Source: Acidobacteriota bacterium | GTDB lineage: Bacteria > Acidobacteriota > Vicinamibacteria > Vicinamibacterales > CAVVIG01 | Assembly (NCBI GenBank): GCA_028876655.1 | Contig: JAGWRA010000026.1 | Span: forward strand, 1-41,879 | DNA: 41,879 nucleotides | Reading direction: 5' to 3' | Part shown: positions 528 to 15,598 of the stretch, in pieces | Layout of the letters: each line of letters starts with the position of its first letter | Position numbering within the stretch: the first letter of the stretch is position 1 | Notes under the pieces: model-generated | Databases searched by the model: none | What the model was told of the DNA's origin: nothing | Seen by the model: the letters and a program-made list of their open reading frames with translations, nothing else | Made by a program: the position numbers and the translations under genes

Positions 528-3500
528 CTTGAGCACCCCCGCCGCGTCAGCCTTCACCCTGGCGAGGTCCTTTGCCACGACGTCGTAGCGTGTGTAGGCG
601 CTCGCCGGCACCTTCTGATCGGCACCGGCGACCTCGCGCTCGATGTTCGAGATCTGCGCGATGAGCATGTTCGGCGTGTACGGCCCCGGCGTGTTCTCGA
701 GCTCGTAGTACACCTTCTCGATGGCCGCGCGGTCGCCGCTGCCGCTCTGCATCGCCGCGTGCAGCTGGTCGGCGAGCTGCCGCGCCTGGCTGAGCAGGTC
801 GCGCACCTTCAATGAGAAGGCGGCCTGTGCCGTCAGGTCGGCTTCGGTGATGCCGGCCTTTGCGACGCGCGGATCGATTCTCACCTGCACGGTCGTCGTC
901 TTCGTCACGTCGCCGACCTTCAGGCGGACGGTGTAGACCCCGGGCGGCACCATCGGCCCGCCGACGGTCCCCTCGGGCTCGCTGGGGCTCCAGGCGCCGA
1001 AGTACCGCAGATCCCACACGAAGCGGTTCATGCCGGCCTGCTTCGGCAGCACGGTCGTCAGGCCGCCGAACCGGCGCGCCATGTAGCCCCCGCCGATCTG
1101 GTTCCGGCCGGCACTCGAGTAGCGCCGGACCAGGTGGCCGGCACCGTCGAGGATGTCGAGCGTGAGGTCACCCGACTGCGCTGCCGGCAGTGTGTAGTCG
1201 ATGTACGCCCCGGCCGGCGGATAGGTGGGCCAGCCGGGCTCGTTCACGATCGGTACGTAGCGCATCCGGTACGCCGGTGCCGGCTTGAAGAGGAAGACGG
1301 GCTGTGCCGGATCCCAGGCCGGCAGTGCCGGCGCGGCGGTCCGGTGCGCGGCTGCCGCGCGCGTCGCGTGGTGGAGGCTCAGCGCGAGCTGCCGCAGCGG
1401 CTCGACGTCGTCCATGATCCAGAAGCCGCGGCCCATGGTCGAGATGACGAGGCTGTTGTCGACGACCTTGATGTCGGTGACGGCGACGGCCGGCAGGTTC
1501 TGCTGCAGCGTCTGCCAGTGTCCGCCGTTGTCGAACGACACGAACGCGCCGTACCACGTGCCGGCGTAGAGCAACCCTTCGACCTCGGGATCCTCGCGGA
1601 CGACGTGCATCGGGAAGTCGTCGGGGATGCCGTTGGTGCCGTTGGTCAGCAGCGTCCAGTGGGCGCCGTAGTCGTTCGTCGTGTACAGGTACGGCTTGTA
1701 GTCGCCGAAGTAGATCCGGTAGATCGAGACGTAGGCCGAGCCCTTGCGGTGCGGCGAGTCCTCGATCGTGTGGACGCGGCCGCCGGCGGGGCCGGGCGGT
1801 GTGACGTTCTTCCAGACCTTGCCGCCGTCGCGCGTCACCCACACGGGCCCGTCGTTCGAGCCGGTCCAGATGACGCCCGGTTCCTCGCGCGACGCACGGA
1901 TCGCGTACAGCGCGCTGTAGACCTCTTCACCCGTCATGTCGCGGGTGATCGGCTCGCCCGAGTCGGTCTGCGTCTCGGGCGTGTCGGCCGTCAGGTCCGG
2001 GCTGATCTTCTGCCAGTGGACGCCGCCGTCGGTCGTCCGGAACAGGTACTGCGCGCCGTGATAGACGATCTTCGGGTTGAGCGGATCGACTTCGATCGGC
2101 CCCTGCCGCACGAACCGGTCGATCTGGTCCTTCGGGTTCAGGCCGTACCGCTGCTGCGGATTGATCCAGTACATCTGCTCCTGTCCGGTCTCGGTGTCGT
2201 ACCGGCCGAACTCACCCTTGCAGTCGCCGTAGACGACCCGTCCGCTCGGGTCGGGACGGATCTGACCGCTCTCGCAGCCCGACGCCTCGCCCCACGCCTG
2301 CTCCGGCCGGTCGAGCGGCCAGGAGACCGGCGGCAGGCTCGACAGCACGACCGTCGAGTTGTCCTGCTGCGGCCCGTAGATCCGGAAGGGGAACTGCCGG
2401 TCGGTGTCGACCATGTAGAACTCGCCGGTCAGCTGGTTCATGATCGACGACCAGCTCTTCCCGCCGTCCTGCGTGACGTTCGCGCCGCCGTCGTTGTACT
2501 CGATGGCGATCTGCGGGTGGTCCGGGTTGAACCAGATGCCGTGGTTGTCGCCGTGCGGCGTCTCGACGGTCGTCCAGGTCTTCCCGCCGTCGGTCGACTT
2601 GTGCAGGCCGAGCTCGCTCACCCACACTTCGTTCTCGTTCTTCGGGTTCACCTCGACGTAGTTGAAGTAGAACGGCCGGGCGCGCAGCCGCGGGCTGTTG
2701 CTCCGGAGCTGCCAGCTGACGCCGCCGTCCTCCGAGCGGTAGAGGCCGCCCTCGGGGCCCGGCGCCTCGACCATCGCGTAGACCACCTTCGGGTCCGACT
2801 GCGCGATGTCGACCCACACCTTGCCGATGAGATCCTTCGGCAGGCCGGCCGTCTCGTGCGTCCAGTGGTCGCCCCCGTCGATCGTCCGGTAGATGCCGCC
2901 GGTGGCCGCCGGACCGCCGCTGATGATCGTCCAGGGCCGCCGCTGCGCGCGCCAGGCGCCCGCAATCACCTCGTTCGGGTCTTCCCAGTTGATCGCCAGC
3001 GAGACGGCGCCGGTCTCGTTGTTGATGAACAGGACCTTCTGCCAGCTCTTCCCGCCATCCTTCGTCCGGTAGACGCCCCGCTCGGCCGTCCACTTGAACG
3101 GATCGCCAAGCGCCGCCACGTAGACGATGTCGGGGTTCTTCGGGTCGACGCGGACGGAGCCGATCTGGCCGACGTCCTTCAGGCCCACGTACTGCCATGT
3201 CTTGCCGGCGTCGGTCGACTTGTACACGCCGCGGCCGAGGATCACGTTGCTGCGGATCGCCTCGCTGCCGGTGCCGACGTAGACGATGTCGGGGTTCGAG
3301 TCGGCGACGTCGATGGCGCCGATCGACGGCGTGGTCATCTGGCCGTCGCTGACCGGCTTCCACGTGATGCCGTAATCGGTCGTCTTCCAGACGCCGCCAC
3401 CCGAGGCCCCCAGGTAGAAGACGTTCGGCCGGGTGCGGACGCCGGTGGCCGCGGTCACACGGCCGCCGCGGTTGGGACCGACGGCGCGCCAGGTGAGCTT

Positions 3501-3647
3501 CTGGTACAGCGACGGATCGATGAGGACGTTCGGATCGGATTGGGCCGTCAGCCGGGTCTGGCCCGGGCCCCCGAACAGGAGCACGGCCGCGACGAAGGTG
3601 ACGAGCGCGAGCAGGCTGCGTCGTACCGGAAGAGGCAGCGTCTTCAT
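525..3647 (-). CDS. Exported sortilin/VPS10-like Asp-box (BNR) beta-propeller protein
   Basis: The 1040-residue protein starts with a signal peptide (two Arg near residue 10, then a Leu/Val/Ala core to about residue 25, cleavage probably near 36). From about residue 87 to 720 it carries around ten Asp-box motifs of the form S/T-x-D-x-G-x-x-W (for example KTTDYGITW, KSTDAGKTW, RTKDGGKSW, KSTDGGKTW). These mark the blades of sortilin/VPS10-like or sialidase-like propellers. A C-terminal part (about 760-950) has FlgD/FN3-like beta character, and the end is helical. Sialidase Arg-triad chemistry cannot be claimed, so a binding or structural role outside the cytoplasm is more likely. The ATG at 3647 is preceded by TGAGGA at good spacing. 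It lies downstream of the exported DsrE gene on the same strand, with a strong hairpin between them. Confidence 0.88.
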   Translation of the reverse strand: MKTLPLPVRRSLLALVTFVAAVLLFGGPGQTRLTAQSDPNVLIDPSLYQKLTWRAVGPNRGGRVTAATGVRTRPNVFYLGASGGGVWKTTDYGITWKPVSDGQMTTPSIGAIDVADSNPDIVYVGTGSEAIRSNVILGRGVYKSTDAGKTWQYVGLKDVGQIGSVRVDPKNPDIVYVAALGDPFKWTAERGVYRTKDGGKSWQKVLFINNETGAVSLAINWEDPNEVIAGAWRAQRRPWTIISGGPAATGGIYRTIDGGDHWTHETAGLPKDLIGKVWVDIAQSDPKVVYAMVEAPGPEGGLYRSEDGGVSWQLRSNSPRLRARPFYFNYVEVNPKNENEVWVSELGLHKSTDGGKTWTTVETPHGDNHGIWFNPDHPQIAIEYNDGGANVTQDGGKSWSSIMNQLTGEFYMVDTDRQFPFRIYGPQQDNSTVVLSSLPPVSWPLDRPEQAWGEASGCESGQIRPDPSGRVVYGDCKGEFGRYDTETGQEQMYWINPQQRYGLNPKDQIDRFVRQGPIEVDPLNPKIVYHGAQYLFRTTDGGVHWQKISPDLTADTPETQTDSGEPITRDMTGEEVYSALYAIRASREEPGVIWTGSNDGPVWVTRDGGKVWKNVTPPGPAGGRVHTIEDSPHRKGSAYVSIYRIYFGDYKPYLYTTNDYGAHWTLLTNGTNGIPDDFPMHVVREDPEVEGLLYAGTWYGAFVSFDNGGHWQTLQQNLPAVAVTDIKVVDNSLVISTMGRGFWIMDDVEPLRQLALSLHHATRAAAAHRTAAPALPAWDPAQPVFLFKPAPAYRMRYVPIVNEPGWPTYPPAGAYIDYTLPAAQSGDLTLDILDGAGHLVRRYSSAGRNQIGGGYMARRFGGLTTVLPKQAGMNRFVWDLRYFGAWSPSEPEGTVGGPMVPPGVYTVRLKVGDVTKTTTVQVRIDPRVAKAGITEADLTAQAAFSLKVRDLLSQARQLADQLHAAMQSGSGDRAAIEKVYYELENTPGPYTPNMLIAQISNIEREVAGADQKVPASAYTRYDVVAKDLARVKADAAGVLK

Positions 3648-3703
3648 AGGGACATCCTCAATGCGCGAGAAGACCGGATGCGCAATCCTGGGGCGGATCG
3701 CGG

Positions 3704-3734
3704 GCCGGCCGGCCCCGAGACGGGGCCGGCCGGC
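3704..3734. terminator. Perfect 13-bp GC hairpin between DsrE and the Asp-box gene
   Basis: GCCGGCCGGCCCC (3704-3716) is followed by a 5-nt loop GAGAC and the exact inverted copy at 3722-3734. It lies 52 bp beyond the reverse-strand stop at 3786, where a terminator for the DsrE transcript is expected, and 57 bp before the next start at 3647. There is no T-tract, so it may instead act as an attenuator or mRNA stabiliser in the leader of the Asp-box gene. A TATACT hexamer on the reverse strand (3753-3748) sits just upstream of it. Confidence 0.6.
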
Positions 3735-3785
3735 TGAACAAGCGCCAAGTATAACGGCTGAGGTGGCGGGCGCGGGAAGGGGAAT

Positions 3786-4346
3786 TTACGGCATGACGAC
3801 GTAGCCCTCGCCCGCCAGCGTCGTCATGACGGTCAGGGCCGAGAGGCTCAACTGCACCTGTGGCGCCAGTTCCTTCTTGGCGAAGCCCCGGGCGGCTGCC
3901 GTCTGGCCGCAGATGTAGATGGCCACGCCCGCCTGGTGCAGCGCCTCGAGCAGCCCGAGGTTCGGGTTGTCGGTGTGGTACCGGGCCTGGTACGCGGCGT
4001 TGCTCAGGGCGTCCTTGCCGGCGGGGCCGTGCAGGATGAGCGCGAGCTTCATGTTCTTCAGCGGCACGCCGGCCTGCCCCTGCATGTTCAGGTACCGGGC
4101 GACCGTGTCGATGTTCGAGTTCAGTTCTGACGCCGACTTCGGGGTCCGCGTGACGCTGAAGATCACCTTGAAGACGTGATCCGTGGGCGGCTTGAAGTCG
4201 GCGTCGGGGACGGCGAACACGGCGCCGTAGCCCTTGATGTACGGGCCGTCGTGCGTGGGCGGCTTGTCCTGGGCGCGGGCGCCGGCGGTCAGACAGAACA
4301 GCGAGGCGGCGAAGAGCAGGATAGAGACGGACAGGCGTTTGGTCAC
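3786..4346 (-). CDS. Exported DsrE-family protein
   Basis: I choose the GTG at 4346: it is preceded by TGAGGAC at proper spacing and gives a 186-residue protein starting directly with a signal peptide (TKRLSVS, then a Leu/Phe/Ala core, cleavage after GARAQ). The mature part has the DsrE-like alpha/beta fold. A first strand with hydrophobic IFSVTR is followed by a helix containing NSNIDTVARYLN, a strand with KLALILHGPAG, and a late strand VAIYICGQTAA with a single Cys in the position typical of the family. DsrE proteins usually handle sulfur in the cytoplasm. Exported members are common in annotations, but their roles are unclear. No other sulfur gene is nearby, so sulfur transfer is not supported by context. 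Upstream extension of the frame to 4451 lacks a signal peptide at its start and is rejected. Confidence 0.82.
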   Translation of the reverse strand: MTKRLSVSILLFAASLFCLTAGARAQDKPPTHDGPYIKGYGAVFAVPDADFKPPTDHVFKVIFSVTRTPKSASELNSNIDTVARYLNMQGQAGVPLKNMKLALILHGPAGKDALSNAAYQARYHTDNPNLGLLEALHQAGVAIYICGQTAAARGFAKKELAPQVQLSLSALTVMTTLAGEGYVVMP

Positions 4347-4467
4347 AATCGGGTCCTCATTGTTCAGTTCGCATGGGGCCCCACCCCCATGCGTTGCCGT
4401 CGCTGACGCTCCGGATCTTGAAAGATGCAGGGTTGCCGCTTCGAGTGGCACCCGCGTCGGCGTCCTC

Positions 4468-5370
<903 letters not shown>

Positions 5371-5376
5371 GGCCCC

Positions 5377-5383
5377 TATAATA
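5377..5383. promoter_or_regulatory. Shared bidirectional -10 element for two leaderless divergent genes
   Basis: TATAAT at 5377-5382 ends 6 nt before the ATG at 5389 on the plus strand. Read on the other strand, TATTAT (5383-5378) ends 7 nt before the ATG at 5370. With a start site about 7 nt after a -10, both transcripts would begin at or next to their start codons. Only 18 bp separate the two starts, so no ribosome-binding sites fit. No strong -35 box is visible; any -35 would lie inside the opposite gene. Confidence 0.65.
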
Positions 5384-5388
5384 CCTGC

Positions 5389-5904
5389 ATGGCCAGCTTC
5401 CGTGAGCGCCTCGCCGGTGCCATCGGGCTGAACGCCGCCACGTACGAGGAGGTCGAGGCCGACCGGAGCGCGACCGGCCAGGCCATGGCCGTGGTGCTGT
5501 TGTCGAGCGTTGCCGCCGGCATCGGTGCCATCGGCATCTTCGGCCCGGCGGGCATCGTCCGCGGCGCCGTCAGCGCGCTGGTCGGCTGGTGCGTCTGGGC
5601 CGTCCTGACCTACATCATCGGAACCCGCCTCCTGCCCGAACCGCAGACCCGGGCGACGGTCGGGGAACTCCTGCGGACGACCGGATTCGCCGCCGGGCCC
5701 GGGCTGTTCCGCATCTTCACCCTCGTGCCGGGGGTGGGCTGGCTGGTTGCGCTGGTCTCGGCCGTCTGGATGCTGGCGGCCATGATCGTGGCCGTCCGCC
5801 AGGCGCTCGACTACACCAGCACCCTTCGCGCCGTCGCCGTCTGCGTCATCGGCTTCCTTATTTACCTGGCAACCGCCCTCCTGTTCCTGCCGTTTGCCGG
5901 CTGA
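5389..5904 (+). CDS. Yip1-family-like integral membrane protein
   Basis: The 171-residue protein begins with an amphipathic N-terminus (SFRERLAGAIGLN and an acidic patch around residues 20-28). It then has about five hydrophobic segments, at roughly residues 29-50, 52-76, 98-112, 113-132 and 145-168. The arrangement, including GTRLLPEPQTRATVGELLRT between helices and the FRIFTLVPGVGWLV stretch, matches the bacterial YIP1 family. Function in bacteria is unknown. The start is the only ATG near the divergent promoter and is probably leaderless (TATAAT 6 nt upstream). It is probably a single-gene transcript, because a promoter region for the next operon follows. Confidence 0.8.
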   Translation: MASFRERLAGAIGLNAATYEEVEADRSATGQAMAVVLLSSVAAGIGAIGIFGPAGIVRGAVSALVGWCVWAVLTYIIGTRLLPEPQTRATVGELLRTTGFAAGPGLFRIFTLVPGVGWLVALVSAVWMLAAMIVAVRQALDYTSTLRAVAVCVIGFLIYLATALLFLPFAG

Positions 5905-5947
5905 CCCCCTGCCCGGGGCGTCGCTGTCTTGAAAAGTCGCCATAACG

Positions 5948-6008
5948 ACCACAAAGTGGTGTACTTACAGAACTGAAATTACACAAACACTTACGTTCGC
6001 GTTATACT
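5948..6008 (+). promoter_or_regulatory. AT-rich promoter region of the secreted-protein operon, with a palindrome
   Basis: This is an unusually AT-rich patch. TTACAC (5979-5984) and TATACT (6003-6008) are 18 bp apart and resemble -35 and -10 boxes. The predicted transcript would have a leader of about 150 nt before the ATG at 6164. Just upstream, ACCAC-AAA-GTGGT (5948-5960) is a perfect 5-bp inverted repeat, centred about 25 bp before the -35 and suited to an activator or operator site. Both are sequence-only assignments. Confidence 0.5.
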
Positions 6009-6163
6009 GCCCGGCGCTCGATGAGCCCATCTTTGACACCAAACCGTCGTCCGCCGTCTGCGGGTCTGCCGTCCGCCCCGTGGTCGCCCCGCTCTCGAGG
6101 CGGATTCGCCTGACTTCATCGACGCTCACCTTTCACCGTTTCCCCATCTTCATCGGAGGAGCC

Positions 6164-6730
6164 ATGACCAACTGGATATCCCTGCGCCGGATGTCACGAC
6201 CGGCGGCCGCGCTGGCGCTGCTCGGCCTGACGCTCGGCGGCGTGCCCGCCGCGTCCGCGCAGACCGCGGCGGCAACCGGGCCGCAGACGTACAACGTGAA
6301 TCTCTCGCACGCGCAGGTGTCGTACCCGTCGACGACGCAGGTCGTCGTGACGATGCAGGCGACGGGCGCGCTGCCCGGTCTGCTGACGCTGACGCTCAAT
6401 CACGACGCCGGGTCGGCCGACGTGACGTCGGCGACGTGGGCGCTGACGGTTTCGTCCGCGCAGTACTCACCGCTGCCGGCCGGCACGACGAGCGACGACC
6501 CCGATGCGCAGGTGATGACCCTGGTGAACGAAGGGACGCTCGGCGGCAAGGTCACCGGCGCGACGCTGGTGACCGACGCGAACGGCGCCGTCGTCGGCGT
6601 CAGCGGCGCGCAGCTCTTCATTGTCAGCGGCAGCCTGCAGTTCGACGGCGCGGCTGGTGGCGGCTCCCTGCAGGCGACGGGCTTCGCGGACTTCGCGACC
6701 TCGTCGGGCACGTTGAGCCTCAACTTCTAG
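6164..6730 (+). CDS. Small exported protein of unknown function
   Basis: The ATG at 6164 follows GGAGGAG almost directly and gives a 188-residue protein. It has a clear signal peptide (residues 1-32; Arg-rich start, Ala/Leu core, cleavage after ASAQ). The mature chain is rich in Thr, Val, Ser, Gly and Ala in alternating pattern, which suggests an all-beta domain. It ends GTLSLNF with a C-terminal Phe and has no Cys. I recognise no family. It lies 21 bp upstream of the very large MBG-repeat protein on the same strand, so the two are probably co-transcribed and may act together at the cell surface. The in-frame extension upstream to 6080 lacks a ribosome-binding site and would bury the signal peptide. 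Confidence 0.82.
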   Translation: MTNWISLRRMSRPAAALALLGLTLGGVPAASAQTAAATGPQTYNVNLSHAQVSYPSTTQVVVTMQATGALPGLLTLTLNHDAGSADVTSATWALTVSSAQYSPLPAGTTSDDPDAQVMTLVNEGTLGGKVTGATLVTDANGAVVGVSGAQLFIVSGSLQFDGAAGGGSLQATGFADFATSSGTLSLNF

Positions 6731-6751
6731 GCTGTCAGGGAGAGACTCACG

Positions 6752-9700
6752 ATGACCGCACAACTCAAGAAGGCCGCGCTGGTCCTGGTGGCCGTCCTGG
6801 CGCTGACGGGCATGTTCAGCAGCCGGGCGTACGCCACCCACTTCCGCTACAGCACCATCTCGTGGTCGGCGAGCCCGACCAACACCCACCAGGTGACGTT
6901 CCAGATTCAGTCGGCCTGGCGGTGGGACTTCCCGTGGCAGATCTCGCATCCGCAGGTCGGCCAGACGTTCAACTCCGGCTACGTCTTCTATTTCGGGGAC
7001 GGGAGCTATGGTCAGATGAACCTGACCGTCACTGCGGTCGATGCGGCCAACGACTGGATGGTGGCGACGACGACGCTGACGCACACCTATGCGGGCAACG
7101 GTCCCTACATGGCGTATTTCGAGAACTGCTGCCGCCTGTCGACGCTGCTCGACAACAACCACGACCTCAACTTCATCCTGGATACGAGGGTCGTGCTGAG
7201 TAATACGCAGCCGAACCAGTCGCCGACGGTTGCGAGCGTGCCAATCATCGTGATGCCGGCGGGCGTGACGACGAGCTTCCAGATTCCGGCGAGCGATCCC
7301 GACGGGACGATTGCGTCCTACGCCCTCTCGACCACGGTGCAGTCGGGGCTAGACACGCCCTCGCCGCTGGGATTGAAGCTCACACCGTCTGGCCTGGTGA
7401 CCTGGACGCCGGCGACGTTCCAGGAAGGGCTGCATGCGATCCAGTTCACGATCACGGACAACGACGGGAACACCGTGCCGCTCGACGTGCTCCTGAACGT
7501 CATTCCTTATGCCGGTGGCACGCCGCCGACGGTGCTGATCAACAGCTCGAGCAGCCCGGTGACCGTGAACGCGCAGGCGGGCGTGCCGCTCAGCGTCGCG
7601 TTGGGCGCGACCGATCCGGACCTCGACCCGGCGACGGGACTGCCGAATACCCTGGTGACGATGGGCTCGGGCGGCCTGCCGGTGGGTGCCACGGTGACGC
7701 CGACGATGCCGTTCACGCAGCGGGTGCCGGAGACGGCGACGTTCACCTGGACGCCGACCCTGGCGCAGGCGGCGCAGACCTACACGGTCGTCTTCTCGGC
7801 GACCGACAACACCGGGCTGCAGTCGACCAACTCGCTGACGATCCACGTGGCGAGCCCGCAGCCGCCGACGGCGACCTGTTCGCCGGCGACCTACGCGGTG
7901 CAGCCGACCTCCGCGGCCGGTGCCGACGTCACGATGTCGGCCGCCGTGCAGGATCCGAACAAGCTGCCGCTGACGGTCACCTGGACCGCTGACGGCGCGG
8001 CGACCCCCGCGCAGACCGACAACGTGGCCGGCGGGACGACCGGTCCGACCACGCTGACCTCGACGCAGACCTTTGCGGTTGGCAGCCACTCGGTGGTGGT
8101 GGCGGCGACGAATACCTTCTTCTCGACCGGCACGTGCACCATCGGCGTGACGGTGGCGAAGGCGGACCAGACGATCACCTTCCCGGAGGTCGGGCCACAG
8201 ACCTACGGCGGCGCGCCGATCGTGCTGGGGGCGACCGCTTCGTCCGGTCTGCCGGTGACCTACACGCTGCTCTCGGGGCCGGCGACGCTCAGCGGCAACA
8301 CGCTGACGATCACGGGTGCCGGAGCGATCATGGTGATCGCCTCGCAGGCGGGTGACGCCACCTTCAACCCGGCGGCCGATGTCCCGCAGGAGATTGTCGT
8401 CGGGTTGGCGACGCCGGTGGTGTCGGTGACGGGCGGGACCTTCACCTACGACGGGACGCCGCACGCCGCCACGGTGACGGCCACCGGCGTGGGCGGCGCG
8501 CCCCTCGCGCCGGTGACGGTGACCTACAACGGGTCGGCGGCGGTGCCGGTCGACGCGGGAACCTACACCGTGCAGGCCAGCTACGCCGGCGGCGCGAACT
8601 ACGCGCCCGCCAGCGGCTCGGCGACGGTCACGATCAACAAGGCGACGCCGGCGGTCACGGTGACCGGCGGCACCTTCACCTACGACGGGACGCCGCACGC
8701 GGCCACCGTCTCGGTGACCGGCGTGGGCGGCGCGGCCCTCTCGCCGGTGACGGTCACCTACAACGGCGCGCCCGACGTGCCGGTGCACGGCGGGAGCTAC
8801 GCGGTCGCCGCGTCGTTCGCCGGTGACGCCAACTACCTGCCGGCCAGCGGCACGGCCTCGATCTCCATCACCCGGGCGTTGCCGGCGATGGTGGTCAAGG
8901 CCGGGACGTTCACCTACGACGGCACGCCGCACGCGGCGACCGTGTCGGTGACCGGCGTGGGCGGCGTGGCGCTCGGCCCGGCCACGGTCCTCTACAACGG
9001 ATCGCCCTCGGTGCCGACGAGTGCCGGCAGCTACCCGGTGCAGGCCCACTACGCGGGGACGACGGACTACGATCCGGTCGACGGCACGGGGACGCTCGTG
9101 ATCAACCCGGCGTCGCTGACCATCGCGGCCAACAGCACGTCGATGTCCTACGGCGGCGTGGTGCCGGCGCTCGGCGTGACCTACACGGGCTTCGTGGGCG
9201 GCGATTCGCCGGCGAGCCTCGCCACGCCGGTGACGATCTCGACGACGGCGACGCCGACGAGCCCGGTGGGGACCTACCCGATCGTGGTGGGCGGCGCGAC
9301 GTCGCCGAACTACACGATCGCGTTCGTCAACGGCGTGCTGACGGTGAACCCGGGCCAGCTGACGATTACCGCCGACAACCAGACCAAGTGGGTGGGGGCG
9401 GACGTCCCGGCGCTGACGGTCACCTACGCCGGCTTCGTCAACGGCGACACGGCGGCGAGCCTGACGACGCCGGTGACGGTCACCACGACGGCCACGAAGC
9501 TGAGCCCGTCGGGGACCTACCCGATCGTGGTCTCGGGCGCGACCGACCCGAACTACACCATCGTGTTCGCCAACGGGACGTTGACGGTGGTGGGGCTGCA
9601 GCAGGTGAAGCAGACGGCGCGCGCGGCGATCGCGGCGCTGAAGCCGACCGGCAGCCGCCAGATGGATCATGAGATCGACGAGGCGCTGCGGGAAATCGAC

Positions 9701-14927: not shown

Positions 14928-15584
14928 TCAGCGCGGCGCCCGCTGACGGTCGAGCCAGTAGACGACGAGGCTGACGCCGAGGGTCTGCAGAATCCAGCCG
15001 GCCGCCAGCGCCGCGGGCGGCGGTGCGGCCACCATCATCGCCTGCCCGGCGAGCATCATCACGGTGATCGCGCTGGCGAACAGCGGCATGCCGTACCGGC
15101 CGATCGGCGTGCGCGACGTCCCGACGCCCGCGTACAGCACGAGCCCCACGACCACGAGCGCGGCCTCGAGCGCGAGCGCCGCCGGCAGGTGGTTCCACAA
15201 TCCCAGGCCGAGCTTCGGGGACGAGGGACCGGCCACTGGCAGCTCCGGCACGTGCACGATCGCGTCGAGCAGGAAGTGCGAGAACACGGCCGCGCCGATG
15301 GCGAACGCCGCCAGCCGCCGCCCGCGGGTGGCGGCCAGCGCCACCAGCGCCGCGGCGAGCGACCAGCCGAGGCTGGCGATCAGGCCGTGCGACCAGGGAA
15401 ACGTGTAGAGCAGGTAGTGGCGCGCCGGCAGGTCCGGCGGCACGTGCACCTGCTCGATGCCCACCAGCACGAAGACGCCGAGCAGCAGATCGAGCAGGTA
15501 GGCGGCCAGCACCAGCCAGCCGGCGTTCAGCCGCCGATCCACCCGCTTCAGGGCGAGTCCGACGCCGAGATGTCCGGGCCCCAT
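14928..15584 (-). CDS. Multi-spanning membrane protein, possibly DUF457/YdjM-like
   Basis: The 218-residue protein has about six hydrophobic segments. It begins MGPGHLGVGLALKR and contains LAAYLLDLLLG, FPWSHGLIASLGW and FSHFLLDAIVH. This spacing of His and Asp residues near helix ends recalls the membrane-bound metal-dependent hydrolase (DUF457/YdjM) family, but the match is only at motif level. A TATAAT on the minus strand (15598-15593) ends 8 nt before the ATG at 15584, so the mRNA may be leaderless. The SPW-like gene ends 84 bp upstream on the same strand. Function is unknown. Confidence 0.75.
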   Translation of the reverse strand: MGPGHLGVGLALKRVDRRLNAGWLVLAAYLLDLLLGVFVLVGIEQVHVPPDLPARHYLLYTFPWSHGLIASLGWSLAAALVALAATRGRRLAAFAIGAAVFSHFLLDAIVHVPELPVAGPSSPKLGLGLWNHLPAALALEAALVVVGLVLYAGVGTSRTPIGRYGMPLFASAITVMMLAGQAMMVAAPPPAALAAGWILQTLGVSLVVYWLDRQRAPR

Positions 15585-15592
15585 GGGCCTTC

Positions 15593-15598
15593 ATTATA
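15593..15598 (-). promoter_or_regulatory. Consensus -10 hexamer next to the start at 15584
   Basis: TATAAT reads on the minus strand at 15598-15593, with 8 nt to the ATG. This spacing predicts a transcript starting at or within one or two bases of the start codon. No -35 was identified. Confidence 0.55.

Follow-up and report, generated by a model that had tools for sequence, protein, structure and literature searches.

The 18 bp between two divergent genes at positions 5371 to 5388 are probably a bidirectional sigma-70-type promoter, reduced to a shared -10 core and serving two leaderless genes. The site lies in a stretch of 41,879 nucleotides from an Acidobacteriota bacterium, which was analysed as a whole and is referred to here as the window. 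The sharing of one -10 region by two leaderless genes is probably real in view of the geometry of the site, the leaderless signal in the genome, the core kept in a relative and the recurrence of such cores at other gene pairs. The first-pass annotation had already read the site as an overlapping -10 with two leaderless starts, a reading that gains further support from the C at -1 and A at +1 and from the lack of a normal Shine-Dalgarno sequence at either gene.

Geometry of the divergent gene pair

On the minus strand (4468..5370) lies a gene of 300 aa belonging to the FAH family (fumarylacetoacetate hydrolase C-terminal domain; Pfam PF01557, E 1.6e-72). On the plus strand (5389..5904) a gene of 171 aa encodes a Yip1-domain membrane protein, whose Pfam match narrowly passes the cut-off (PF04893, E 7.7e-7, 29.6 bits against 28.6). 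Positions 5368-5391 of the plus strand read CAT GGCCCC TATAATA CCTGC ATG, with the FAH ATG at 5370-5368 (minus strand), the Yip1 ATG at 5389-5391 (plus strand) and a gap of 18 bp, proposed as the entire bidirectional promoter core. Its centre is the near-palindromic TATAATA (5377..5383). Read rightward it holds a candidate -10 hexamer TATAAT for the Yip1 gene (5377..5382), the first T being 12 nt 5' of the ATG with 6 nt between hexamer and ATG; read leftward it holds a candidate TATTAT for the FAH gene (5383-5378, minus strand), with the first T 13 nt 5' of the ATG and 7 nt in between. The rightward hexamer equals the consensus, the leftward one departs from it at a single base, and the two have five bases in common on opposite strands. 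The gap, the five-base overlap and the distances of 6 and 7 nt had been claimed before, and all coordinates are borne out.

From the spacing, transcription of the Yip1 gene is predicted to start at 5389 (the A of the ATG, with a C before it) and that of the FAH gene at 5370 (the A of the ATG) or 5371 (a C). The predicted starts are thus 19 bp (5389/5370) or 18 bp (5389/5371) apart, the latter being the canonical separation according to the available part of PMC12825309. At each of the two window starts the base at -1 is C and that at +1 is A. That both messages start at AUG, as originally proposed, agrees with the Yip1 prediction, while for FAH the start may be the A of the ATG or the base before it. 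The -11A and -7T of one direction pair with the -7T and -11A of the other at 5378 and 5382, and likewise in the congeneric relative described below.

In the mechanism we propose, the housekeeping holoenzyme would bind TATAAT (5377-5382) for rightward transcription and start at or beside A5389, whereas leftward it would use TATTAT (5383-5378) and start at A5370 or C5371. Positions 5378 and 5382 would act as -11A/-7T for both directions, the arrangement of the known 18-bp class. With 5' ends at AUG or one base before it, the two mRNAs would be translated without a Shine-Dalgarno sequence. A bound polymerase would exclude the opposite one, with an effect on output that depends on promoter strength. 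Promoter activity, start sites, leaderless translation and mutual exclusion are all elements that we infer.

Relation to known promoters

Bidirectional promoters were reportedly defined in a 2021 Nature Microbiology paper by Warman, Grainger and co-workers. Our literature search yielded no paper joining leaderless genes with a shared bidirectional promoter, and the 2021 defining paper may mention leaderless cases. According to the available parts of PMC12825309 and PMC10268837, the starts of bidirectional promoters in E. coli and Salmonella are most often 18 bp apart, with -11A/-7T reciprocally paired; in the shared -10 class divergent starts lie 7-25 bp apart, most often 18 (PMC12825309), and the commonest bidirectional class has two hexamers on one shared core (PMC10268837). 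The window resembles the shared -10 promoters in its overlapping opposite-strand -10s, its reciprocal -11A/-7T and its predicted starts 18-19 bp apart, but differs in that both predicted starts coincide with start codons. Consequently the promoter core would be the whole intergenic region, and both mRNAs would be without leaders.

The description of the site as 'one -10' is apt for the common 7-bp core, but the core really carries two hexamers, which is the arrangement reported in the available part of PMC10268837. As for the 'direct competition' between the genes that had been put forward, exclusion is expected from the geometry, but competition is not established: five tested bidirectional promoters of E. 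coli are without it at basal activity, which is too low, and it appears only once one direction is strongly activated (PMC12825309, in the part available).

In leaderless genes the start codon is preceded by TANNNT at a distance of about 12 bp; in three of three genomes of Acidobacteria such genes are predicted to make up 13.3% on average (Zheng et al. 2011, PMC3160421, in the part available). The window has the same signal and spacing as these genes and those of Deinococcus-Thermus (PMC12340547). Both papers deal with single directions, whereas the window signal is two-directional. The available text of PMC3160421 does not contain 'divergent', that of PMC12340547 contains neither 'divergent' nor 'bidirectional', and 'leaderless' is absent from the available text of PMC12825309 and PMC10268837; a Zymomonas paper concerns, in its available part, bidirectional terminators, not promoters. 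Both ingredients are known, and the putative doubly leaderless form is best regarded as a variant of the ~18-bp bidirectional promoter.

Start codons and promoter elements

Homology supports both putative start codons in the window. Among 29 FAH relatives six have alignments that reach residue 1, all six with an ATG there, and many Yip1 relatives from other phyla have the same first residue, with a Shine-Dalgarno sequence upstream of theirs (such a site is found in most of the Yip1 relatives in other phyla). In the window neither the FAH nor the Yip1 start has a Shine-Dalgarno sequence at normal spacing; an AGGGG is located 2 nt from the FAH ATG, which is too near for a normal one. Several members of the Yip1 family (L014, L085, L090) have TANNNT 12 nt before their ATG, from which it would seem that the leaderless start in this family is older than the FAH pairing. 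When upstream regions of Yip1-like starts were read by eye, TTGCA(T) was seen directly 5' of a TANNNT-like hexamer, always equally far from the start codon, in L014, L085, L090, L102, L024, L042, L097 and L107.

No -35 element (TTGACA-like, 16-18 nt upstream of the -10) was recognized on either side of the core, the best matches being 2/6 for Yip1 and 3/6 for FAH, and a search for the TGn of an extended -10 on both sides gave none. At 45 sampled TANNNT starts the mean -35 match is 2.27/6 against 2.18 in shuffles; given this closeness, the lineage seems not to need a -35. Elsewhere in 3500-7000 the only sigma-70-like site is found at 5980-6008, before another gene. This next gene rightward (ATG at 6164; 5980-6166, plus strand) has a classical layout, in which TACACA-17-TATACT, with its end at 6008, is followed by a long leader and by GGAGGAG adjoining the ATG.

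Leaderless signal in the genome

A single box is not convincing alone. With at most one mismatch TATAATNNNNNNATG has one match in the window, against a shuffle mean of 0.26; at least one match occurs in 23 of 100 shuffles, so that such a box is not rare. A two-sided form flanked by supported starts is less frequent: in the own genome CATN{3,11}TANNNTAN{3,11}ATG is found at 7 places (3 with the reversed-pattern control), and when all 7 were read, the window proved to be the sole place with ORFs of 100 aa or more to the left and to the right. The leaderless layout itself is far from random: TATAATN{0,25}ATG has 52 matches in the own genome against 2 in the reversed control, the distance to the ATG being 6 nt in 8 cases, 7 nt in 3, 8 nt in 5 and 10 nt in 8.

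For a wider view we used a genome sample of 655 kb, consisting of the window and 40 stretches (two C150 stretches overlap by 4 kb), with starts from a home-made codon-usage caller. TANNNT is located 12 nt before the ATG in 23 of 329 starts, against 0 to 5 for each distance of at least 16 nt, and 12-15 nt before it in 45 of the 329. The second 20 stretches come largely from contigs with TATAAT matches and are thereby enriched, which makes the 20/140 obtained at 12-15 nt for the window and the first 20 stretches, chosen without regard to TATAAT, the less biased figure. In position and amount the signal matches PMC3160421, as far as that source is available. Its share is 29/126 among starts at divergent gaps and 19/366 among those in codirectional ones (Fisher p 7e-8), and it marks genes needing their own promoter. 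C is found at -1 in 35 of the 45 TANNNT starts (152/284 for the others). The spacings in the window (12 nt for Yip1, 13 nt for FAH) fit the genome peak at 12. Leaderless signals on both sides occur in 4 of 63 sampled divergent pairs, with about 3.3 expected from independent sides at 29/126.

Conservation in a congeneric relative

The divergent FAH/Yip1 pair is kept in a congeneric species (L002, identical in sequence to G001), with protein identities of 80% for FAH and 66% for Yip1. Its intergenic region reads CAT GCCGGT TATTATA TGACCCC ATG, the ATGs being 20 bp apart. The centre base of the core has turned over, which directs the consensus TATAAT towards FAH and TATTAT towards Yip1. Spacer length is 7 nt for FAH, as in the window, and 8 nt for Yip1, and the flanks are largely different. 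What is conserved of the 18-bp region, which the first-pass annotation had singled out for comparison with relatives, is therefore the core and the 7-nt FAH spacing in one congeneric species, with changed flanks. Among the Yip1 loci fetched, an FAH neighbour is found, besides the window copy, only in L002 and L082 (one genus-mate sequence). Consequently, conservation at the exact site rests on two species, and the FAH/Yip1 pair gives no deeper conservation test.

Similar cores at other divergent pairs

A second case is present in the own genome, where divergent genes of the proline racemase and ornithine cyclodeaminase families (Pfam) are separated by 25 bp with TATAAT both ways within the palindrome ATTATAAT. 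This gap and that of the window (18 bp) are the smallest among the 63 sampled divergent pairs, and both have -10s each way.

Across the order, CATN{4,11}ATTATAATN{4,11}ATG, the pattern for ATTATAAT between two start codons, is found at 30 places, spread over 27 of the 162 genomes, against 1 for the control. The window form CATN{4,9}TATWATAN{4,9}ATG is found at 37 places in 35 genomes against 16 for the controls (p 0.005), an enrichment that is only moderate; within the family there is none (8 forward against 7 control). Flanking ORFs that both reach 100 aa are present at 15 of the 27 loci listed (of 30 places) for the ATTATAAT type and, in the case of TATWATA, at 17 of the 30 listed (of 37 places); random CAT-N16-30-ATG sites in the own genome have them in 114 of 853 cases (p 5e-7 and 7e-8, respectively). 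Some order-wide matches, with a short ORF to one side, are unlikely to be promoters of two genes. A phylum-wide count (79 of 396 genomes) was dropped as evidence: outside the order many matches fall where the control is also high.

Several pairs recur among the loci listed: an M20 peptidase with a protein of about 190 aa (7 loci), fumarase-like genes (2), ketosynthase-like/methyltransferase-like genes (3) and a small membrane protein with a second gene (3). Names beyond those matched with Pfam come from reading the sequences, and a Pfam search with the M20 partner (~190 aa) gave no name. When M20 loci were located by protein alone and the core was sought from -100 to +20 of the projected M20 start, it was present in 16 of the 30 loci listed (of 85 matches) and not found in the other 14, while none of 847 background segments had it. 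The partner starts 5-7 nt from the core in the 13 of the 16 loci where its start can be placed, whereas on the M20 side the distance from the beginning of the core to the projected first residue ranges from 11 to 55 nt. With the partner spacing tight and the M20 side variable, it appears that one side can stay strictly leaderless while the other drifts; in having one side fixed and the other drifting, the M20 pair is like the pair of the window. The M20 gene of the own genome has a TACAAT box on one side only and no core. Within L273-L302 the divergent M20 pair with a common TATWATA core is seen in several families of the order, and other M20 loci of this set have ATTATA within the opening codons of the peptidase gene.

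Alternative explanations

It might be argued that genuine leaderless transcription runs in a single direction (for instance from TATAAT into Yip1), that FAH is expressed for the most part from a promoter within the Yip1 gene, and that TATTAT is a by-product of symmetry. The near-symmetry of TATAAT makes a reverse TATTAT easy to come by; divergent starts that arise from such symmetry are frequent in bacteria, the second RNA often being non-coding (PMC10268837, in the part available), and in the window it is the rightward box that equals the consensus, with the leftward one a base off. In the relative, however, the consensus box faces FAH, and spacers of 7 nt (FAH) and 8 nt (Yip1) leave both boxes in range even though the flanks have changed. 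Moreover, apart from 5980-6008 no other sigma-70-like site is found in 3500-7000, and the FAH gene, with its AGGGG only 2 nt from the ATG, has no Shine-Dalgarno sequence at normal spacing. We consider such a one-sided promoter unlikely.

We find it very unlikely that one or both mRNAs are leadered and come from promoters inside the opposite gene, the AT-rich core being a regulator's operator or a chance match. The missing -35 on both sides would agree with this, as would the family count of the TATWATA form, which is level with its control; a dimeric regulator could also bind palindromes such as ATTATAAT. Yet neither start has a usable Shine-Dalgarno sequence, the spacing fits the genome-wide TANNNT peak, and the relative has kept the core but not the flanks. 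A specific operator does not explain a core that is found beside unrelated gene families.

Wider significance

Beyond the preferred reading of the window as a shared -10 core for two leaderless genes, a broader one seems to us evenly balanced between true and false: in this Acidobacteriota order a palindromic core of 7-8 bp between two start codons would be a recurrent, selectively kept control unit that holds both promoters, leaves neither mRNA with a leader, and has arisen or been kept at several unrelated pairs. With no intergenic room for other regulatory sites, nothing but the core and the first codons of each gene would determine the product ratio. If true, this would be a near-minimal two-gene promoter with two -10 elements on one 7-bp core, where the sequence upstream of each -10 is mostly the coding sequence of the opposite gene. 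It would then offer a direct test of the part that polymerase orientation, promoter symmetry and leaderless translation play in setting a two-protein ratio, and of the evolution of such sites where no promoter change can be separated from a coding change. The layout could also aid start-codon placement in the leaderless-rich genomes of Acidobacteriota.

Elsewhere in the window, a perfect TATAAT (15582-15598, minus strand) is located 8 nt before the ATG of a gene called at 14928-15584 on the minus strand, which is likely a second leaderless gene.
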